In this document: one piece after another, positions 1,855 through 13,718 of the stretch
Layout: each line of letters begins with the position of its first letter
Position numbering within the stretch: position 1 is the stretch's first letter
Assembly: GCF_009671205.1 (NCBI RefSeq)
Contig: NZ_CP045309.1
Coordinates: forward strand, 1,488,001-1,552,000
Direction: 5' to 3'
Source of the DNA: Micromonospora terminaliae
GTDB lineage: Bacteria > Actinomycetota > Actinomycetes > Mycobacteriales > Micromonosporaceae
DNA length: 64,000 nucleotides
The notes under the pieces: generated by a model
Database searches by the model: none
Told to the model about the DNA's origin: nothing
What the model saw: the letters and a program-made list of their open reading frames with translations, nothing else
Program-made: the position numbers and the translations under genes

Positions 1855-1934
1855 GCCGGGGCATACACAACTGCTACCGCGACTACGCCCAGCGCAACGC
1901 GACCACCCTGGCGGGCCTGCTCGACGCCGGCTGA
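1855..1934 (+). pseudogene. Orphan C-terminal gene fragment
   Basis: An open frame with good codon use ends at TGA 1932-1934 and reads NCYRDYAQRNATTLAGLLDAG just before the stop. It has no plausible start, and the frame upstream is not coding-like. It is followed 12 bases later by a perfect terminator-type hairpin, as if it were the true 3' end of a chromosomal gene separated from its 5' part by an insertion. The parent family is not recognised, and chance cannot be excluded. Confidence 0.3.
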
Positions 1935-1946
1935 CGAGTTCACCCG

Positions 1947-1973
1947 CTCCGGGTGAGGCCGCCTCATCCGGAG
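1947..1973 (+). terminator. Strong hairpin after orphan gene fragment
   Basis: A 12-bp stem with one G-T pair: ctccgggtgagg, a 3-base loop, then cctcatccggag. It begins 13 bases after the TGA at 1932-1934. Its strength and position suggest a genuine Rho-independent-type terminator for a gene read on the plus strand. Confidence 0.6.
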
Positions 1974-2044
1974 CACCGGCAGCCTGGACGGTGTGCGCGG
2001 TCCGTCCACCGGCGCGACCGCGCGGCCGAGGAGGAGGTGGGGTC

Positions 2045-2239
2045 ATGACGGTGCGGGTCGTAGCGGATCGCCGCCGCGGTGGGGTGCTGCACGTGATCGG
2101 GAACTCCGGCACACCCCGGCGGGGCGGCCGGCCCGGTCGGTTCAGCCCGACCCGGCTCTGGCGGGGGCCCAGCGGGCCACCGCGACGCACCGACGACCGA
2201 CGCTGGGAAACCGACGCACGGGGGTGGGCAGATGGCTGA
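2045..2239 (+). CDS. Small Arg/Gly-rich hypothetical protein
   Basis: A 64-residue basic protein (MTVRVVADRRRGGVLHVIG...). The ATG at 2045 follows a GAGGAGG Shine-Dalgarno by 7 bases, and the frame overlaps the next gene's ATG by 8 bases, so it is probably translated ahead of the DUF2267 gene. The C-terminal half is Arg/Gly/Pro/Trp-rich and likely unstructured. No family is recognised. The strong ribosome-binding site and the overlap are the evidence for coding; composition alone would not be enough. Confidence 0.45.
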   Translation: MTVRVVADRRRGGVLHVIGNSGTPRRGGRPGRFSPTRLWRGPSGPPRRTDDRRWETDARGWADG

Positions 2240-2660
2240 GCAGATGATTTCCGCGTTCGAGTCCTCGCTGGACAAGACCAACGTGATGCTCAAGGAGATC
2301 GAGTCGGCGTACGGCTGGCCGAAGGAGCAGCGCAACCAGTCCTACGCGGCGATGCGCACGGTGCTGCACCTGCTGCGGGACCGGATGCCGGTGGGGCAGA
2401 GCGTCGAGTTCGCCCAGCAGTTGCCGGTGCTGCTGCGGGGCGTCTACTTCGACGGGTGGCAGCCGGAGAACGTGCCGATCAAGCTGAACCGCGAGGACTT
2501 CCTCTACGAGGTCCGCCAGGGCTTCCCGTACGACGTGGAGGGCGGTACCGAGCGGGTGGTGCAGGTGGTGCTGGACACCCTGCGCAAGCACGTGACCCAG
2601 GGCGAATGGGAGGACGTCAAGTCGGCGATGCCGAAGGACCTGGGTCGGATGATCCCGTGA
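2232..2660 (+). CDS. DUF2267 family protein
   Basis: A 142-residue all-helical cytosolic protein of the DUF2267 family, full length for the family. Recognisable features are the opening LDKTNVMLKEIESAYGW, the segment SYAAMRTVLHLLRDRMP and the C-terminal EWEDVKSAMPKDLGRMI. Members occur widely in bacteria, often with stress genes, and their biochemical role is unknown. The last 44 bases overlap, tail to tail, the DUF72 gene on the other strand. No strong Shine-Dalgarno is visible, so translation may depend on the upstream small ORF. Confidence 0.85.
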   Translation: MAEQMISAFESSLDKTNVMLKEIESAYGWPKEQRNQSYAAMRTVLHLLRDRMPVGQSVEFAQQLPVLLRGVYFDGWQPENVPIKLNREDFLYEVRQGFPYDVEGGTERVVQVVLDTLRKHVTQGEWEDVKSAMPKDLGRMIP

Positions 2661-3453
2661 CCCCACCGTCCCCGGCCCGTTCCGCCAGCCCGGCGGGGCG
2701 GGCCGGCGGCGTGCGGGTGACCGGCAGCCCCGCCCGCCGGGCCAGCGCCGCGAAGGCCACCGCGTCGACGATCGCCGCGCCGCCGGGGTCGTTGTTGAAG
2801 TAGACGTACGCCGGTTCGCCCGCCGGGAAGGCGGAGGCGAGCCGGCGCACCCAGGTGGCCAGCGCGGCGCGGCCGTAGCGGGGCCACGGCCGGGCCCGGC
2901 CCTCGTGCAGCCGCAGGTAGCCGAAGTCGGTGGTGCGCCACAGCGGGGTGATCGGCCGGCTCAGCCGGTCCGCCCAGACCAGCGCCGCCCGGTGGCGTTC
3001 CAGGACGCGCCGGGTGTCGTCGGTCCACCAGGACGGGTGCCGGGGCTCAACGGCCACCCGCACCTCGACGGGAAACAGGCGCAGTGTCGCCGCCAAGGCG
3101 TCCGGGTCGGCCCGCATGGTGGGTGGGAGTTGGATCAGCACCGGGCCGAGCCGGTCGCCCAGCCCGGTGGCCCGGTCCAGGAAGCGGGCCACCGGCTCGG
3201 CCGGCTCCCGCAGCCGCTTGATGTGGGTCAGGTAGCGGCTCATCTTCACCGCCACGCAGAAGTCGTCCGGCGTGCGGTCGCGCCAGGCCACGAAGGTGTC
3301 CCGCTCGGGCAGCCGGTAGAAGGCGTTGTTGACCTCGACCGTGGCGAACCGCTCGGCGAAGTGCTCCAGCCAGAGCCGCTGCGGCAGCTTCGCCGGATAG
3401 AAGCGCTCCCGCCAGTCCCGGTACTGCCAGCCCGACGTGCCGACCAGGATCAT
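2617..3453 (-). CDS. DUF72 (YecE-like) TIM-barrel protein
   Basis: A 278-residue protein of the DUF72/YecE family, a TIM-barrel fold of unknown activity. The opening ILVGTSGWQYRDWRERFYP is the family signature. Further family segments are VEVNNAFYRLP, FCVAVKMSRYLTHIKRL, GPVLIQLPP, VAVEPRHPSWW and the C-terminal AYVYFNNDPGGAAIVDA. The last 40 or so residues (Pro/Gly-rich) extend beyond the usual end and cover the convergent overlap with DUF2267. It starts 9 bases after the PIG-L family gene and is probably cotranscribed with it. Confidence 0.85.
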   Translation of the reverse strand: MILVGTSGWQYRDWRERFYPAKLPQRLWLEHFAERFATVEVNNAFYRLPERDTFVAWRDRTPDDFCVAVKMSRYLTHIKRLREPAEPVARFLDRATGLGDRLGPVLIQLPPTMRADPDALAATLRLFPVEVRVAVEPRHPSWWTDDTRRVLERHRAALVWADRLSRPITPLWRTTDFGYLRLHEGRARPWPRYGRAALATWVRRLASAFPAGEPAYVYFNNDPGGAAIVDAVAFAALARRAGLPVTRTPPARPAGLAERAGDGGVTGSSDPGPSASPT

Positions 3454-3462
3454 CCCGGCCGC

Positions 3463-4206
3463 CTACGCGAGGTCGATCCGGAACACCTCGAAGGCGGCCC
3501 CGTACCGGACGCCCAGCCGGGCGCCGGCCGGGCGGGCCAGCCCCTCGAGGAACTCCTCGGCATCGAAGCCGCCGTCGCCGAGCCCGCTCAGGTACGCCCC
3601 GTGCGCCCGCAGCGACGCCACCCCGCGGTCGAAGCTGGCCGTCACGTCCACCCCGTGCCGGGCCTGCGGGGAGGCGGCCGCCCACACCTCGCGGACCCGG
3701 GACCACGGCTGCACCCCGTCGGTGAGCTGCTCAGGGAAGATCCACCGGTTGCCGGCGTCGCGGACCGCGTCCAGCGTGGCCCGGCCGCAGGCGATGTGGT
3801 CGGCCTGGTTGAGCGCGTACGCCCCGTCCCAGGTGTCCCGGAAGTTGTTCGTGAGCACGATGTCCGGGCGGTGCCGGCGCACCACCGCGGCGATCTCGCG
3901 GCGCAGCGCCACGCCGTACTCCAGCAGCCCGTCGGGGAGGCCGAGGAACTCCACGGTGTCCACCCCGACCACGGCGGCGGAGGCCCGCTGCTCCTCCTCC
4001 CGCAGCACCCGGCTGCGCTCCGGCGGCATCGCGTCGATGCCCGCCTCGCCGCTGGTGAGCAGGCAGTAGACGACCTGCTTGCCCTGCCCGGTCCAGCGGG
4101 ACACCGCGGCGGCCGCGCCGAACTCCAGGTCGTCCGGGTGGGCCACCACGGCGAGCGCCCGCTGCCAGTCCTCGGCCAGCGGCGTCAACGGCTCCGGCTG
4201 CCCCAC
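3463..4206 (-). CDS. PIG-L family deacetylase
   Basis: A 247-residue LmbE/PIG-L fold protein, a zinc-dependent family that removes acetyl groups from N-acetylglucosamine-type substrates. Actinobacterial members include MshB and Mca of mycothiol metabolism. The metal motif AVVAHPDDLEFG is near residue 20. The second part (ALNQADHIACGRATLDAV) supplies the downstream His, and LTNNFRDTWD is also family-typical. I chose the GTG at 4206 because a GGAAGGGGG Shine-Dalgarno ends 5 bases before it; the longer frame from 4248 overlaps that site. The substrate is unknown; it is not an obvious MshB, and mshC is 22 kb away. Confidence 0.85.
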   Translation of the reverse strand: MGQPEPLTPLAEDWQRALAVVAHPDDLEFGAAAAVSRWTGQGKQVVYCLLTSGEAGIDAMPPERSRVLREEEQRASAAVVGVDTVEFLGLPDGLLEYGVALRREIAAVVRRHRPDIVLTNNFRDTWDGAYALNQADHIACGRATLDAVRDAGNRWIFPEQLTDGVQPWSRVREVWAAASPQARHGVDVTASFDRGVASLRAHGAYLSGLGDGGFDAEEFLEGLARPAGARLGVRYGAAFEVFRIDLA

Positions 4207-4405
4207 GGCCACCCCCTTCCGCCCGCGCCCTTCCCGCCATCCTGGCACCGGACGCGACCCGCCGCCCGGCGAGCGGCGCGGGGCCCGGCGAACCGTCCGT
4301 ACGGCACGTCCCGGGCGTCTACGGTGTGGTTAGAGAAAATCGGGCGTGGGGTACCACCCGCTGCACACGGACCCCGACGACGGGGCGGCACACCGAGGGA
4401 GACCC

Positions 4406-4693
4406 ATGGCACTCAACGACGACGACATGCAGACCACCGGTGGCGGCGGTGCCGAGGGCCCGGCCGACGGTGGCGCGACCCCGGGCCAGCAGGACGGCGG
4501 CGCCGACGGCGGCGCGGACCGCGGCGCCGAGCGCGGCCGGGACCAGGGTGCCGACGCCGGCGCGGAGGGCCCGGCCGACGGTGGCGCGACCCCGGGCCAG
4601 CACGACGGCGGGGCGGACGGCAGCGCCGAGGGCCCGGCCGACGGCGGTGCGACCCCCGGTCAGCGCGACGGCGGCGCCGACGGCAGCGCCTGA
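4406..4693 (+). CDS. Acidic Gly/Ala/Asp repeat peptide, candidate substrate of adjacent oxygenase
   Basis: A 95-residue protein. The leader (MALNDDDMQTTGGGG) is followed by three copies of AEGPADGGATPGQ-x-DGGADG at residues 16-36, 53-73 and 74-94, with a charged spacer (ADRGAERGRDQGADAG) between copies 1 and 2. It has no Cys or aromatic residue and is strongly acidic. The ATG follows a GAGGGAG Shine-Dalgarno by 4 bases, favoured over an upstream in-frame ATG at 4346. Only 3 bases separate its stop from the JmjC/cupin gene. I infer a disordered protein or precursor peptide whose repeated Asp, Pro or Gln residues may be hydroxylated by that enzyme. No characterised family is recognised. Confidence 0.75.
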   Translation: MALNDDDMQTTGGGGAEGPADGGATPGQQDGGADGGADRGAERGRDQGADAGAEGPADGGATPGQHDGGADGSAEGPADGGATPGQRDGGADGSA

Positions 4694-4696
4694 CGG

Positions 4697-5974
4697 ATGG
4701 CCGTGACGCACCTCGACCCGCCGGGCGGCCACGGCCGCCCGGCGGTTCCGTCTTCCGCGGCCGACGCCCTGGCGCGCTGTGTGGCGGTCGAGCCCGCCAA
4801 GTTCGCCGCCGACCACTGGGGGCGCAGCCCGCTGCTGTCCCGGGCGGCCGAGCTGCCCAACCCGGCGGGCTTCACCGACCTGCTCAGCCCCGCCGACGCC
4901 GACGAGCTGCTGAGCCGGCGCGGCCTGCGTACCCCGTTCCTGCGGGTCGCCCAGGACGGCCAGCTCGTGCCCGCGGCGCGTTTCACCGGCGGCGGCGGGG
5001 CGGGCGCCGAGATCGGCGACCAGGTCCTCGACGAGAAGGTCCTGTCCCTGTACGCCGACGGCGCCACCCTGGTCCTCCAGGGCCTGCACCGCATCTGGCC
5101 GGCGCTTGTCGACTTCGCCCGCGACCTGGGCACCGCGCTGGCCCAGCCGCTGCAGGTGAACGCCTACCTGACCCCGGCCGGCAACCAGGGCTTCGCCACC
5201 CACTACGACACCCACGACGTGTTCGTGCTCCAGGTGGACGGCCGCAAGCACTGGCGGATCCACCCGCCGGTGCTGCCCGACCCGCTGGAGAAGCAGCCCT
5301 GGGGCGGCCGGGCCGACGAGGTCTCCGCCGTGGCCGAGGGCCGGCCCGCGCTGGACGTGGTGCTCGAACCCGGCGACGCGCTGTACCTGCCGCGCGGCTG
5401 GCTGCACAGCGCGCAGGCGCAGGAGCGCAGCTCGCTGCACCTGACCGTCGGCATCCGCGCGCTGACCCGGTACGCCCTGGTCGAGGAGCTGCTGGGGCTC
5501 GCCGCCGAGGACGCCCGGCTGCGCGCCGGGCTGCCGTTCGGCGTCGACGTGGCCGACCCGGACGCCATCGAGCCGGAGCTGACCGAGACGGTCGAGGCGC
5601 TGCGCGACTGGCTCCTGCGGGCCGACCCCGCGGCGGTGGCCGCGCGGCTGCGCGCCCGGGCCTGGCCGGCCGCCCGCCCGGCGCCGATCCGGCCCCTCGC
5701 CCAGGCCGCCGCCCTGGCCACCCTGGACGCGGACAGCCGCGTCGCGCCCCGCGCCGGGCTGCGCTGGCAGCTCACCCCGACCGGCGACGGCACGGTGGCG
5801 CTGCGCCTGTTCGACCGCACCATCACCCTGCCCGGCACCTGCGAGCCGGCGCTGCGCGCGCTGCTGGCCGGCGAGGTGACCCGGGTCGGCGACCTGCCCG
5901 GCCTGGACGACGACGCCGACCGCCTGGTCCTGACCCGCCGCCTCCTGAAGGAAGCCGTCCTGACCCCGGCCTGA
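4697..5974 (+). CDS. JmjC/cupin-fold 2-oxoglutarate oxygenase
   Basis: A 425-residue member of the cupin_4/JmjC ribosomal-oxygenase-like family (YcfD/RoxA, MINA53, NO66), Fe(II)- and 2-oxoglutarate-dependent protein hydroxylases. The Fe triad is visible as H169-x-D171 in THYDTHDVFVLQ and H237 in LYLPRGWLHSAQ. The region GRKHWRIH carries conserved basic residues after the HxD motif. The C-terminal half (about 260-425) is the dimerisation and winged-helix-like part found in ribosomal oxygenases. It lies 3 bases after the repeat peptide gene without its own clear Shine-Dalgarno, implying translational coupling. A ribosomal protein target is an alternative; the linkage favours the neighbouring peptide. 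Confidence 0.85.
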   Translation: MAVTHLDPPGGHGRPAVPSSAADALARCVAVEPAKFAADHWGRSPLLSRAAELPNPAGFTDLLSPADADELLSRRGLRTPFLRVAQDGQLVPAARFTGGGGAGAEIGDQVLDEKVLSLYADGATLVLQGLHRIWPALVDFARDLGTALAQPLQVNAYLTPAGNQGFATHYDTHDVFVLQVDGRKHWRIHPPVLPDPLEKQPWGGRADEVSAVAEGRPALDVVLEPGDALYLPRGWLHSAQAQERSSLHLTVGIRALTRYALVEELLGLAAEDARLRAGLPFGVDVADPDAIEPELTETVEALRDWLLRADPAAVAARLRARAWPAARPAPIRPLAQAAALATLDADSRVAPRAGLRWQLTPTGDGTVALRLFDRTITLPGTCEPALRALLAGEVTRVGDLPGLDDDADRLVLTRRLLKEAVLTPA

Positions 5975-5989: not shown

Positions 5990-6661
5990 TCAGCGGGTTG
6001 CGGTCAGGGTCAGCAGGAGTGCGGTCGTGGCCAGGCCGGTCGCGGCGACCAGGAGGATCGGGCGGGGGGTCAGCACGGCGTGGCGGCGGTCCGCCAGCAG
6101 CCGGGCCGGCGCCAGGCCGACCAGCGGGCCGAGCAGCGTCACCACGAGGGCCAGTACCGGCATGCCGACCGCCAGGTCCCCGCCCGAGCCGGCGCCCAGC
6201 GCGCGTGCCCCCGCGCCCAGGGCGTACGCCACCAGCGCGCCGCCGATGCCGAAGCCGACCAGGAGCGGGTTCGCCGAGCCCGGCAGCTCGCCCGGCTGGC
6301 GGGTGCGGTCCAGCAGCTCGCGCACCCCGCGCAGCAGCGGCAGCGGGTCGCCCGTGGCGTCGCGGGCCGGGCCGGGCGGGTCACCCAGCCGCCGCCCGCC
6401 GGCGCCGATCCGGGCCCGGAGCTGGCCCCACAGGTGCGCGGCCTCGCCGTCGACGCGTTCGACCATCCGCTGCGCCTCGGCCACCTCCGCCTCGGCCCGC
6501 CGCACCTGCTCGGCGGCCTCGGCCACGGCACGGTCGGCGGCGGCGACCTGCTGCGCGTACCAGCCGTGCGCCTCGGCACGCTGGGCAGCCACCCGGGCGG
6601 TCAGCTCGGCGAGCCGGCGGACCTGGGCGGCGTACGTCTCACTGGCGACCGGTTCGTTCAT
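5990..6661 (-). CDS. Coiled-coil membrane protein, last gene of FtsK-like cassette
   Basis: A 223-residue protein. Residues about 8-80 form a long Ala/Glu/Arg heptad coiled coil. A Pro/Gly/Arg-rich linker follows, then four hydrophobic segments (two around NPLLVGFGIGGALVAYALGAG, one around AVGMPVLALVVTLLG, and a C-terminal ILLVAATGLATTALLLTLT). The ATG at 6661 overlaps the ATPase stop as ATGA, so it is translationally coupled. The topology (cytosolic coiled coil plus a small membrane bundle) suits a membrane anchor or channel component for the upstream FtsK-like ATPase. No family name is recognised. Confidence 0.75.
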   Translation of the reverse strand: MNEPVASETYAAQVRRLAELTARVAAQRAEAHGWYAQQVAAADRAVAEAAEQVRRAEAEVAEAQRMVERVDGEAAHLWGQLRARIGAGGRRLGDPPGPARDATGDPLPLLRGVRELLDRTRQPGELPGSANPLLVGFGIGGALVAYALGAGARALGAGSGGDLAVGMPVLALVVTLLGPLVGLAPARLLADRRHAVLTPRPILLVAATGLATTALLLTLTATR

Positions 6662-9330
6662 CGGGAGGGACCATAGGGGATGATCACCTGTCCCGTGCGG
6701 TGCACCGCCCGGTCGAAGTAGAGGCCGCGCCACGGGCGGGGGTACCAGTCCGGCCCGCCGGTGCCCGGGTAGAGCGAGGAGCCCAGCTCGGCGCCCTGCA
6801 CGTCGAGCGCGACCCAGGCGCCGATCTGGTCGGTGCGTGCCGCCGGCCCGCCCAGGTCGACGCGCATCCGGGCCACGCCGCGCCACCAGGCCAGCACGTG
6901 GGTACGCCGTTCGGGCCCGTCGTGCAGGATCCGGCGCAGCTGCTCCAGCCCGGTCCGCCGGCCGGCCTTCCCGGCGAGCTGCCCGGCCGCCGCGTCGACG
7001 GCGTACAGCAGCAGGAAGTGCGGGGTCTGCGGGGTACCCGGAGCGCCGAGGGTGTCACCCACCTCGGCCATCAGCTCGGGCACCGTCTCCTCGTCGTACC
7101 AGGCGGCGTCGTCGGCCAGATCCTCGTAGAGGGCACGGGCGGCCGGGTCGGCGTCGGGGTCGAGGCAGGCGATGGAGAACCGGGCGGTGCCGGGCCGGTA
7201 CTGCCGGGCGAGGGAGCGGGCGGCGGCGTCGAGCACCGCGCACGCCTCGTCGACCCGGGTACCGAGCACGGCCAGGTTCCGCCCGGGGGCCCGGGGCAAC
7301 CGCAGCGCCGCCGAGCGCGCCTGCACGTCGATGAGCTCGCCGAGCAGGGCCACCGGGGTGCGCGGGACCCCCTGCTCGGGGGCGGTCAGCGCCCGGAAGT
7401 CGGGCGCCTCGGCCAGCCTCGGGACGGCGTCGCCGTCGAAGAGCCGCGCGGGAGCGGCGTCCTGCGGGCGCATCCGCCACAGCCGGTGCTGGAGCTGGCT
7501 CCACGTCTCCCAGTCGCCGGCGAGGGGGATGCGGGCCACCTCGTTCCCCTCGGCCAGCCCGGACTCGGCGTTGACCACGGCGTGGTGCCGGGGCAGCGAC
7601 TGCGCCGCGTCGTTGCGTTCGGCCAGGATCCGCAACGCCTTGGGCAGGGCGATGCGCAGGGTGAACTGGGCGACCAGGGCGGGCCGCCCCCACAGCGCCT
7701 CGATGCCGCGCACGTCCTGCGAGGCGAGCACCAGGTGGATGCCCTGCGACCGGCCCCGCCGGGCCAGGTCCTCCAGCAGGTCGGCGGCCTCGCGGGCGAC
7801 CACGTCGCGGCCGGCGAGCAGCGCCTGGAACTCGTCGACCACGGCCACGATCCGCGGCCAGTGCCCGGTGGGGTCCACGGCGCGCAGCTCGGCCAGCTTG
7901 GTGACCTCGTGCTTCTTCGCCGCGTCGGCGCGTCGGCGCAGCTCCTCGGCGAGGAACCGCAGCAGCGCCAGCCCGAACTCCCGGTCGGTGTTGACGTTGA
8001 TCCCGACCAGCCGCATGTGCGGCAGCCAGCTCGGGTCCCGCCGGCCCTGCGCGAACCGGGCGAAGGACACCCCCTCCTTGAAGTCGAGCAGGTAGAACTC
8101 CAGCTCGGTGGGGGAGTAGCGGGCGGCCAGCGCGCCGATCCACGCGAAGATCAGGTTGGTCTTGCCGGTGCCGGACGGGCCGCCGATCAGCGCGTGCGGC
8201 GGGTAATCGCCGAGGGTGAGCAGCACCGGCCGGCCGTGCGGGCCCTCGCCGATGGGCGCCGTGAGCCCGTGCGCCGAGTCCTCCCGCCAGTACTCCCCGG
8301 TCGGGGGGAGCAGGTCGGTGAAGGGCGCCGGCGGCGGGCCGGCGTTGACCCGGGAGGCCACCTCGCGGCAGGTCTCGGTGACCAGCCCGGCCGGCGGTGG
8401 GGCGTCGAGCGCCACGGGCAGCCCGCCGATCCGGGCGTCGTCCGGGTCGACCACCACCCGGATGACGGTCGGCCCGTCGGGCAGGTCGATGCCGCGGACC
8501 ACCAGGTGCACGCCGCAGGCCGCCCCGGTACGCACGACCCGGTCCAGCTGGCCGCGCTCGTGCCGGGACAGCTCGTCGCCGCCGAGCAGCACCGCGACCC
8601 GCCAGGGCTCGGGCCGCCGGCCGGTCGCGGCGGCCAGCTCGCGCAGCGACGCGTACTCGCCGGCCAGCACCGTCTCGTTGATCCGGCGGATCTGCTCCAC
8701 CAGGTCGTCGAGCAGCCGGCCCAGGCCGCCCGGGCCGACGAAGGTGAGCAGCCCGGCGGTGCCGAGGGGGGCGAACCCGGCCAGCCCGCCGCCCAGGTGC
8801 TCGGGGTCGTACCCGAAGAGCCGGACCGCGCCGGGGTCGGCCCGGCCGACCGAGCGCAGCAGCAGCGCGGGCACGACCGCGGCGACGCCCTCCCGGTCGC
8901 TGCCGGCGAGGTGCACGTGCCCGGCGTCGAGCAGCGGGACCAGGGCCGGGACCGGCTCGGCGCCGGTGATGCGTACCGTGCCGATCCGGACCGCGCCGGG
9001 TGGCTCGGACCGCCCGGCGGGGGTGGCCTGCCAGCGGTCCCACGGCGCGGACGCCGCGCCCGGCGCCTCCCGCCCGGCCGCCGCGGCGGCCCGGCGGGCC
9101 AGCTCGGCGATCCGGGCGGCGTGCCGGGTGTCGATCTCGGCGAGGCGGCGGTCCCGCTGCGCGCCCACCCGTTCGGGTACGGCCGCGGCGGCGCGCCGCA
9201 CCCGGGCCAGCCGGTCGCGGCCGGCGGCCAGGTCGGCGTCGGCGGCGGCGAGCCGGGTACGGGTGGCGCCCAGGGCCTCGGAGAGCATCCCCCGGACCCG
9301 CGTCACCAGTTGCGCGCGGACGTCAGCCAC
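6658..9330 (-). CDS. FtsK/SpoIIIE (EccC-like) multi-module ATPase
   Basis: An 890-residue P-loop ATPase. It has an N-terminal coiled coil (about 10-85). A first FtsK-like module (about 110-340) lacks a Walker A. The active module has Walker A GPSGTGKT at 384-391 and Walker B VAVVDEF with D499/E500, followed by the FtsK-type HLVLASQDVRG. A third module (about 655-890) has a degenerate P-loop (PGRNLAVLGT, no GK[ST]) and a Walker-B-like FLLLYAVDA. One active and two degenerate modules recall EccC of type VII secretion rather than the DNA translocase FtsK. There is no obvious transmembrane segment; the neighbouring gene supplies one. It overlaps the upstream gene by 8 bases. The cargo (DNA or protein) is unknown. 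Confidence 0.85.
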   Translation of the reverse strand: MADVRAQLVTRVRGMLSEALGATRTRLAAADADLAAGRDRLARVRRAAAAVPERVGAQRDRRLAEIDTRHAARIAELARRAAAAAGREAPGAASAPWDRWQATPAGRSEPPGAVRIGTVRITGAEPVPALVPLLDAGHVHLAGSDREGVAAVVPALLLRSVGRADPGAVRLFGYDPEHLGGGLAGFAPLGTAGLLTFVGPGGLGRLLDDLVEQIRRINETVLAGEYASLRELAAATGRRPEPWRVAVLLGGDELSRHERGQLDRVVRTGAACGVHLVVRGIDLPDGPTVIRVVVDPDDARIGGLPVALDAPPPAGLVTETCREVASRVNAGPPPAPFTDLLPPTGEYWREDSAHGLTAPIGEGPHGRPVLLTLGDYPPHALIGGPSGTGKTNLIFAWIGALAARYSPTELEFYLLDFKEGVSFARFAQGRRDPSWLPHMRLVGINVNTDREFGLALLRFLAEELRRRADAAKKHEVTKLAELRAVDPTGHWPRIVAVVDEFQALLAGRDVVAREAADLLEDLARRGRSQGIHLVLASQDVRGIEALWGRPALVAQFTLRIALPKALRILAERNDAAQSLPRHHAVVNAESGLAEGNEVARIPLAGDWETWSQLQHRLWRMRPQDAAPARLFDGDAVPRLAEAPDFRALTAPEQGVPRTPVALLGELIDVQARSAALRLPRAPGRNLAVLGTRVDEACAVLDAAARSLARQYRPGTARFSIACLDPDADPAARALYEDLADDAAWYDEETVPELMAEVGDTLGAPGTPQTPHFLLLYAVDAAAGQLAGKAGRRTGLEQLRRILHDGPERRTHVLAWWRGVARMRVDLGGPAARTDQIGAWVALDVQGAELGSSLYPGTGGPDWYPRPWRGLYFDRAVHRTGQVIIPYGPSR

Positions 9331-11053: not shown

Positions 11054-11171
11054 GCCCCCAGCGTGCCACCCGCCCGCGTTTGTCGCGCCGACCGCGGGGT
11101 AGCCACCGCCGGACCGTGCCGCGCCATGTCGCGCCCCGGCGGCCGTGCCGACCGACTGCGGAGGAGAACTG

Positions 11172-13718
11172 ATGGGACCCGGTGACTTCGGCAACGACCC
11201 GTGGGACGAGTTCCTGGCCCGGTACTTCGGGCGGGGCGAGGGGGGACGCCGGCCGGCGCACCGGGTCGACATCACCCGCCTCATGACCGCGGACGCGCGG
11301 GAGATGCTGGCCGACGCGGCCCGCCGCGCGGCGCAGAAGCACAGCAACGACCTGGACACCGACCACCTGTTGTGGGCGGCGTTGCAGCGCGAGCCGCTGC
11401 GGGACCTGGTCCGGCGGGCCGGCGCCGACCCGGACGCGCTGGTCAACGCCCTCGGCGGGCGCGGCGACGGCGCGCCCCGGGGTGAGGTCCCGCCCAACCT
11501 GTCGCTCACCCCGGCGGCCAAGCGGGCCCTGCTCGACGCGCACCAGCTCTCCCGGGCCATGGGCGCCAACTACATCGGTCCTGAGCACATCCTCATGGCC
11601 CTGCCGCTCAACCCCGAGTCGCCGGCCGGCCGGATGCTCGCCGCCGGGCGGATCCAGCCCGAGTCGCTCCAGGCGGCCAACGCCGAGCGCGGTCCCATGA
11701 CCGGCCCGAAGCCCGACCGCGGCACCCCCACCCTCGACCAGTACGGCCAGGACCTCACCGATCTGGCCCGGATGGACCAGATCGACCCGGTGATCGGCCG
11801 GGCCGACGAGATCGAGCAGGCCGTGGAGATCCTGTCCCGGCGCACCAAGAACAACCCGGTGCTCATCGGCGAGGCCGGTGTGGGCAAGACCGCCATCGTG
11901 GAGGGGCTCGCCGAGCGGATCTGCGACGGCGACGTGCCGCAGACCCTGATCGGCAAGCGGGTCATCCAGCTCGACCTGGCCGGCCTGGTCGCGGGCACCC
12001 GCTACCGGGGCGACTTCGAGGAACGGCTCAAGAAGGTGATCGACGAGATCCGTGCGCACCGCGAGGAGCTGATCATCTTCCTGGACGAGATCCACACCCT
12101 GGTCGGCGCGGGCGGCGCCGGCAGCGAGGGCGGCATGGACGCGTCCAACATGCTCAAGCCCGCCCTGGCCCGCGGCGAGCTGCGGGTGATCGGCGCGACC
12201 ACGCTGGACGAGTACCGCAAGAGCATCGAGAAGGACGCGGCCCTGGCCCGCCGGTTCCAGCCGGTGCTGGTTCCCGAGCCCAGTGTCGAGGACACCGTGT
12301 CCATCCTGCGCGGCCTGCGCGACCGGTACGAGGCCCACCACCAGGTCCGGTTCACCGACGAGGCGCTGGTCGCCGCCGCCGAGCTGTCCGACCGGTACGT
12401 CACCGACCGGTACCTGCCGGACAAGGCCATCGACCTCATCGACCAGGCCGGCGCCCGCGTGCGGCTGCGCACCCGCACGCCCGCCGCCGACGTGCGCGAC
12501 CTGGAGCAGCAGCTCGACGAGGTACGCCGGGACAAGGAGCAGGCCGTCTCCGACGAGCAGTACGAGCGGGCGTCCACCCTGCGCGACCGGATCGCCGAAC
12601 TGGAGGACCAGGTCCGCCGCGCCCGCGGCGACGAGGGCCCCAGCCACGTGCCCGAGGTCGGGCCGCGGGAGATCGCCGAGGTGGTCTCCCGGGCCACCGG
12701 CATCCCGGTCAACCAGCTCACCGAGGAGGAACGGGACCGGCTGCTGCGCCTGGAGGGGCACCTGCACGAGAAGGTCGTGGGCCAGGACGAGGCGGTCAGC
12801 GCGGTGGCCGAGGCGGTCCGCCGCTCGCGTACCGGGCTGGCCGACCCCGACCGGCCCATGGGCAGCTTCCTCTTCCTCGGCCCCACCGGCGTCGGCAAGA
12901 CCGAGCTGGCCCGGGCGCTCGCCGAGGCGCTGTTCGGCGAGGCCGACCGGATGGTCCGGGTGGACATGAGCGAGTTCCAGGAGCGGCACACGGTCAGCCG
13001 CCTGGTCGGCGCGCCCCCCGGGTACGTCGGCTACGAGGAGGCCGGACAGCTCACCGAGGCGGTCCGCCGCCGCCCGTACGCAGTGGTGCTGCTCGACGAG
13101 ATCGAGAAGGCCCACCCGGACGTGTTCAACATCCTGCTCCAGGTGCTCGACGACGGCCGGCTCACCGACAGCCAGGGCCGTACGGTGAACTTCAAGAACA
13201 CCGTACTGATCATGACGAGCAACCTCGGTTCGGAGCTGATCACCGGTACCCAGCGCACCGTCGGCTTCGGCGCCGGTGAGCCCGGCGAGCAGGAGACCAG
13301 CGAACTGCGCGAGCGCCTCATGCGCCGCCTGCAGGAGAACTTCCGGCCCGAGTTCATCAACCGCATCGACGAGGTGATCATCTTCCAGCGGCTGGAGGCC
13401 GAGCAGCTGCGCCAGATCACCGGGCTGCTGCTGGAGGAGACCCGCCGCCGGCTGCACGCCCAGGACATCCAGGTCGACTTCACCACCGCCGGCGTGGACT
13501 GGCTGGCCGAACACGGCTACCAGCCCGAGTTCGGCGCCCGGCCGCTGCGCCGGGTCATCCAGCGCGAGGTCGACAACCGGCTGTCCCGGATGCTGCTGGA
13601 GAACCAGATCTCGCCCGGGCAGCGGATCACCGTCGACGCGCGGGAGGGTCAGCTTGCCTTCGACGTGACCGCCGGCGACCGCGGCTACACCACCGCGGCG
13701 ACGTCCCATCCGCGATGA
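11172..13718 (+). CDS. ClpC-like Hsp100 AAA+ unfoldase
   Basis: An 848-residue class I Clp/Hsp100 ATPase. After a short extension ([17 protein letters not shown]) comes the double Clp N-domain (about 30-175). D1 has Walker A GEAGVGKT (233-240) and Walker [14 protein letters not shown]-like middle stretch ([21 protein letters not shown]) replaces the long ClpB coiled coil. D2 has GPTGVGKTE and [15 protein letters not shown]. The C-terminus is the usual D2-small domain ending basic. The ATG at 11172 follows GGAGGAG; an ATG 27 bases upstream lacks this. With a short middle domain it is ClpC-type, expected to feed ClpP or act as a chaperone. It may be a second paralogue rather than the essential ClpC1. 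Confidence 0.9.

Follow-up and report, generated by a model that had tools for sequence, protein, structure and literature searches.

A peptide–JmjC oxygenase gene pair in Micromonospora terminaliae and across Actinomycetota, proposed as a RiPP-like peptide hydroxylation system

Introduction

The closest described relatives of the system treated here are the ribosomal oxygenases NO66, MINA53 and YcfD and the tailoring hydroxylases of ribosomally synthesized and post-translationally modified peptides (RiPPs). The system is a pair of adjacent genes in a 64,000-nucleotide stretch of Micromonospora terminaliae (contig NZ_CP045309.1, positions 1,488,001 to 1,552,000; hereafter the window), encoding an acidic repeat peptide and a JmjC-family Fe(II)/2-oxoglutarate (2OG) oxygenase. 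Enzymes of the JmjC fold hydroxylate side-chain β-carbons. CinX of the cinnamycin pathway is an Asp β-hydroxylase of RiPP biosynthesis, and PqqD is a RiPP recognition element (RRE).

For biphenomycin-type RiPPs, passages of two papers describe JmjC/cupin ornithine hydroxylases, BpmG and PbsQ (PMC12257519) and BipG (PMC12707348). According to passages of PMC12710340, fish and algae have PF08007 proteins with a fused RRE-like domain, and PF08007 homologues of ~30% identity occur in bacteria in RiPP-like contexts. SmaO, as cited in a passage of PMC13097080, β-hydroxylates Asp in a ribosomal peptide, and passages of PMC13118837 concern other cupins.

We propose that the two genes of the window probably form a self-contained enzyme–substrate system, RiPP-like in design, in which a leader-guided hydroxylase makes poly-3-hydroxyaspartyl peptides.

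The Repeat Peptide and Its Pairing with the Oxygenase

The 95-residue open reading frame (ORF) at 4406–4693 encodes, as the initial annotation had described, a strongly acidic peptide with three near-identical repeats and no Cys, Phe, Trp or Tyr. The translation begins with MALNDDDMQTTGGGG, and the unit EGPADGGATPGQ-x-DGGADG occurs three times, differing only at x (Q, H, R), with an 18-residue degenerate stretch, GADRGAERGRDQGADAGA, separating the first copy from the second. Compared as DNA, the copies differ by 2–6 synonymous and 1–1.5 non-synonymous changes, i.e., mainly synonymously. Among 27 close peptide genes, non-synonymous divergence (pN) was 0.109 and synonymous divergence (pS) 0.407, a ratio of 0.27, and pN was the smaller of the two in all 351 pairs. 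Of 202 motif-bearing related peptide starts, 194 have a Shine-Dalgarno-like 4-mer in front of them, compared with 37 of 202 random positions. These two results, together with a pairing that recurs across the phylum, place the ORF beyond chance: it is a real gene under selection at the protein level. No Pfam or NCBIfam model matched the window peptide, and its next matches in the same genome are weak (E 0.07 and 0.38). The antisense ORFs that overlie the gene pair were dismissed as mechanical.

The initial annotation had taken the peptide for the dedicated substrate of the oxygenase, and the neighborhoods of related enzymes support that reading, being the opposite of a consistently absent peptide neighbor. 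Sequence upstream of the enzyme was read in a family sample (78 of 83 Micromonosporaceae orthologues plus 12 paralogues), a class sample (67 loci from 118 matching genomes, taken best-scoring first) and a phylum sample (27 further loci from 58 matching genomes); a named-genome sample held the best 80 of 559 enzyme loci, with species that partly overlap the others. Enzyme loci scoring 180 bits or more were counted as paired when an Asp-rich, small-residue ORF lay directly upstream on the same strand. Such an ORF was found at 76/80 family, 63/64 class and 22/23 phylum loci, together 161/167, the controls giving 3/167 antisense and 1/167 downstream. The named genomes gave 78/80 (controls: 1 antisense, 6 downstream), and all loci pooled gave 239 of 247, with 4 antisense and 7 downstream hits.

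A first Asp threshold of 20% found 133 of 264 loci and missed many because DGGA-type cores hold only 15–17.5% Asp; later thresholds of 12.5% and 15% gave equal counts. The lowered thresholds and the 180-bit cut were chosen after seeing the data, with the controls scored at the same thresholds, and 17 refetched loci had been omitted from the first detector run. Of 17 loci under the 180-bit cut, 4 passed the pairing test, and one of these, L082, was dropped as being of another type. Because the detector works on composition, L225 and L232 score as positives although their acidic ORFs show no clear repeats, and at L278 it scored the wrong ORF, a repeat ORF being present at the locus. The misses among the 247 comprise three loci at contig ends (L016, L135, L269), one with an apparently broken frame (L183), one whose peptide lies elsewhere in the genome (L076) and three distant enzymes (L079, L081, L236).

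Presence and absence across 150 Micromonosporaceae genomes follow the same pattern. The enzyme matched in 91 of these at E ≤ 1e-3, 83 of them at E ≤ 1e-90, and a profile built from 16 peptides matched 84 at E ≤ 1e-5. At the two stricter thresholds both genes occur in 83 genomes and neither in 66, the latter including one with an enzyme fragment only (G086, E 1.8e-16, at a contig start); a single genome (G113) has the peptide without the enzyme, at a contig end. The co-occurrence gives a Fisher value of 2e-42, which ignores shared ancestry. In the genome of locus L076 (G115), an intact peptide gene (L282:3731-4009, minus strand) lies 2.4 Mb from the enzyme, both frames being open; the two genes thus do not strictly have to be adjacent. 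Another genome, G137, holds a second repeat-peptide copy (L283:2325-2543, plus strand) ~19 kb from its linked pair, and the ORFs listed for positions 1900–3400 include no oxygenase next to this copy.

The enzyme with its upstream peptide was found in named Micromonospora, Salinispora, Actinoplanes, Asanoa, Catellatospora, Actinokineospora and Modestobacter, and peptide-only matches bear names from Amycolatopsis, Leifsonia, Mycolicibacterium and Streptomyces. In the enzyme tree two clades, of 137 and 26 tips, are peptide-linked; their joining as one group is not resolved by that tree. The phylum-wide pairing of peptide and enzyme is strongly supported, and the repeat peptide is very likely the dedicated substrate of the oxygenase.

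The Oxygenase

The oxygenase starts 3 bases after the peptide stop (4693 to ATG at 4697), and both this gap and the iron ligands named in the initial annotation (H169, D171, H237) were borne out. All 162 peptide-linked relatives keep H169 and D171, and likewise K184, while H237 is identical in all 161 that have a letter there. K184 is the expected 2OG-binding lysine. As read from the sequence, the HxD...H iron site and the 2OG lysine are intact. The earlier family label stood with a small correction, "cupin_4" corresponding to Pfam JmjC_2: the protein matches PF08007 (E 1.3e-30) and also Cupin_8, and it is the sole PF08007 match in the source genome at E ≤ 0.001.

The AlphaFold2 model (mean predicted local distance difference test 89.7) has NO66, MINA53 and YcfD as its nearest solved structures in the Protein Data Bank, aligns with NO66 along its full length and shows the ribosomal oxygenase architecture of a JmjC domain, a helical part and a C-terminal winged helix. 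In its fold the predicted C-terminal domain resembles PqqD, TbiB1 and PbtF, with modest Z scores. Residues Q128, R132, Q153 and H173 are conserved alongside the peptide.

From these structural neighbors and the shared full-length architecture one could argue for an ordinary ribosomal oxygenase that acts on a ribosomal protein, the peptide being its co-encoded regulator, decoy or chaperone. We consider this improbable, since peptide and enzyme are retained or lost jointly in the 150 genomes and the peptide behaves as a substrate would, with a variable number of repeats and a core type that tracks the enzyme clade (see below). Genomic context suggests the peptide, rather than a ribosomal protein, as substrate.

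A further observation concerns Glu419 (5951–5953), in the RRE-like domain. This residue is Glu in 128 of 134 enzymes linked to leader-bearing peptides, and of the 28 scored without the leader motif 14 have Ala and 9 have Glu at this position. Glu419 is a possible leader contact, an association confounded by ancestry and by mis-trimmed starts.

Leader and Core of the Peptide Family

The layout of a candidate leader followed by a multi-copy core, read earlier from the single peptide, recurs across the family. A loose leader pattern, L-x-[DE]-[DE]-[DE]-[I/M]-x-T, which was composed after viewing the sequences, matches 177 of 215 distinct peptides, residue shuffles giving a mean of 1.9 and a maximum of 5; wrong starts in this test include L219, L222, L228, L229, L232 and L278. 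One point qualifies the conservation of the leader: a sub-lineage, 28 of 162, lacks the motif, in a loose test that includes some mis-trimmed peptides.

The cores of 242 peptides fall into DGGA (210), DGTDGDAT or DADAVD (23) and other (9) types. Core type tracks the enzyme clade, being DGGA in 130 of 134 in one and non-DGGA in 25 of 26 in the other. The number of DGGAD units ranges from 2 to 6 in 75 distinct Micromonosporaceae peptides, and a core holds 4–34 Asp. For composition, peptides above 200 residues, mostly with mis-trimmed starts, were removed, which reduced 215 distinct peptides to 206; their net charge runs from −6 to −38. Gly and Ala occur in all 206 cores, with minima of 1.4% and 4.8%, and of the 2185 Asp counted across 183 distinct DGGA-type peptides 90% precede Gly, Ser or Ala.

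The upstream ORFs of L225 and L232 have a common non-repeat end, DDPEL(A/S)GADL-EDQ-GP, and may represent another type of precursor, found within a single family. At L079 (G058:C1:7571680-7574291), a distant JmjC_2 enzyme of 34% identity has a precursor-like ORF that ends ~17 nt upstream, with a GGAGGA site ahead of it, a different leader (LRLEDVEVV) and an Asp/His-rich core ending in DPTDCCDH. Other JmjC_2 enzymes may have peptide partners too.

Proposed Chemistry and Mechanism

The initial annotation had named Asp, Pro or Gln as the target, which we narrow to Asp as the likelier residue. Asp makes up at least 10.7% of every one of the 206 cores, a result partly built in as the detector selects Asp-rich ORFs (few loci failed it). 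Pro is present in 196 cores and missing from 10, His in 151 (missing from 55) and Gln in 125 (missing from 81). Two things favor Asp, its abundance in cores built to very different plans and the β-carbon chemistry of the fold, and we regard it as the probable main site of hydroxylation.

Fe/2OG enzymes are chemically varied, and the peptide could be the substrate of another reaction: further Asp oxidation, ring closure, backbone cleavage, or hydroxylation of His or Pro, both of which are common in the cores. A paper on α-ketoglutarate-dependent macrocyclization is cited in PMC12710340 among its references for RiPP-like contexts (refs 40–45), in the passages available. Against this, some cores lack His or Pro and none lacks Asp, an argument that is partly circular with an Asp-selecting detector; we judge such other chemistry unlikely, with a probability that is still appreciable.

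Under the hydroxylation proposal, the peptide would be translated first, ahead of the oxygenase. Its N-terminal leader (LNDDDMQTT here) would be gripped by the RRE-like C-terminal domain, and the Fe(II)/2OG JmjC site would hydroxylate side chains of the core, likeliest at the Asp β-carbon. The core Asp residues of the window peptide have small residues on either side. The product would be a small, strongly anionic poly-3-hydroxyaspartyl peptide, which most likely stays intracellular or exits by a housekeeping route, as no dedicated protease or exporter was found alongside. Its likeliest role might be to bind a metal, for example Ca2+ or Fe3+, as a polyvalent ligand; this is speculative, and we would rate a metal-ligand function as somewhat unlikely. 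The pair behaves as a RiPP-like system, and membership among the RiPPs hinges on the chemistry proposed here.

Neighboring Genes and Features of the Window

Neighborhoods were compared at 23 loci, namely 22 from named genomes (~10 kb on each side) and the first 20 kb of the window, using ORFs of at least 120 residues. The enzyme is common to all 23 and so is the peptide; the other ORF group present in 23 of 23 is mostly the opposite strand of the enzyme. The groups that follow in size cover 14 and 13 loci, every one in Micromonosporaceae. Apart from the enzyme, no ORF within this size range is shared by all 23 loci, short and unlinked genes falling outside the scope. The absence of an exporter or protease beside the pair, remarked upon from the window, holds likewise: none is conserved among these ORFs.

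The peptide could also be an acidic repeat protein that functions unmodified, as a metal-binding protein or spacer, with linkage reflecting co-regulation only. A polyanionic, low-complexity sequence and the lack of any maturation gene in this comparison are consistent with such a protein. The phylum-wide linkage of just two genes, with no larger neighbor in all 23 loci, the leader/core layout and the residues retained in peptide-linked enzymes speak for modification instead, and we find an unmodified role very improbable.

The neighbors in the window are a PIG-L deacetylase (3463–4248, minus strand), a DUF72 protein (2617–3453, minus), an FtsK/SpoIIIE-like ATPase (6658–9330, minus) and a ClpB/ClpC-like AAA protein (11145–13718, plus). 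None of these is common to all 23 loci. The features of the pair are collected in Table 1.

Table 1. Positions of the peptide and oxygenase features in the window.
Feature	Positions	Strand	Basis
Shine-Dalgarno-like GAGGGAGA, 5′ of the peptide start	4395..4402	+	read from sequence
Acidic repeat peptide, 95 aa, ATG start/TGA stop, proposed precursor/substrate	4406..4693	+	ORF, selection, homologues
Leader motif LNDDDMQTT, proposed recognition sequence	4412..4438	+	near family pattern L-x-[DE][DE][DE]-[I/M]-x-T
Core repeat 1, EGPADGGATPGQQDGGADG	4454..4510	+	
Degenerate Asp/Gly/Ala/Arg stretch separating repeats 1 and 2	4511..4564	+	
Core repeat 2, EGPADGGATPGQHDGGADG	4565..4621	+	
Core repeat 3, EGPADGGATPGQRDGGADG	4628..4684	+	
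JmjC_2 Fe(II)/2OG oxygenase, 425 aa, NO66/ROX-like architecture, proposed peptide hydroxylase	4697..5974	+	Pfam, AlphaFold2, PDB matches
Iron ligands H169 and D171 (HYD)	5201..5209	+	identical in 162/162 relatives
K184, expected 2OG-binding lysine	5246..5248	+	identical in 162/162 relatives
Iron ligand H237	5405..5407	+	identical in 161/161 with a letter there
C-terminal domain, residues 326–425, winged-helix/RRE-like fold, proposed leader-binding domain	5672..5971	+	

Comparison with Known Systems

No description of this peptide–JmjC pair was found in the open-licence literature, where broad queries were followed by their top results only. The string DGGADG occurs there in a single paper, on pig breeding, and the terms cupin, JmjC, hydroxylase and oxygenase are absent from the texts of PMC7794033 and PMC7470986. 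Most named matches to the peptide are hypothetical proteins; the database name BatC protein stands on two of the listed peptides (Amycolatopsis, Leifsonia). If the proposal is true, a two-gene system for peptide modification, as yet without a name, is present in many actinobacteria belonging to several classes and is overlooked by automated annotation, since the peptide is of low complexity and mostly filed as hypothetical. It would include an unusually simple JmjC/RRE peptide hydroxylase that could become a tool for multi-site Asp hydroxylation.

JmjC/cupin hydroxylases in RiPP pathways are already known, and it is the two-gene peptide–enzyme pair that is apparently undescribed in the open-licence literature. 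As described in the available passages on them, BpmG/BipG and PbsQ are JmjC-family or cupin-like hydroxylases that act on a ribosomal precursor peptide, as the window enzyme is proposed to do. They are tailoring enzymes in clusters with a multinuclear non-heme iron-dependent oxidative enzyme (MNIO), a radical S-adenosylmethionine enzyme, an arginase and a protease. In the window system, compared with them by description, no conserved enzyme was seen other than the JmjC protein, and the long repeat core is built of Asp, Gly and Ala. CinX and SmaO, also compared by description, act in larger pathways; the window-type cores hold 4–34 Asp. The JmjC passages of PMC12710340 name neither the peptide family nor a two-gene system. 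The predicted C-terminal domain of the window enzyme resembles the RREs at modest Z, and leader binding is proposed for it.

The ribosomal oxygenases share JmjC_2 (PF08007) with the window enzyme, which instead travels with an acidic repeat peptide and keeps Q128, R132, Q153 and H173. Tentatively, the pair may represent a RiPP-like class that spans the phylum and has so far gone undescribed, with a single RRE-fused JmjC enzyme converting Asp-rich repeat peptides into poly-3-hydroxyaspartyl metal ligands; on the same tentative footing, and in view of the same enzyme-plus-winged-helix architecture, the winged helix of NO66 and MINA53 may be the relic of an RRE, and ribosomal protein hydroxylases may have an ancestor in common with such peptide modifiers. 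If the two-gene proposal is true, there would be a testable connection between RiPP enzymes and the eukaryotic ribosomal oxygenases.
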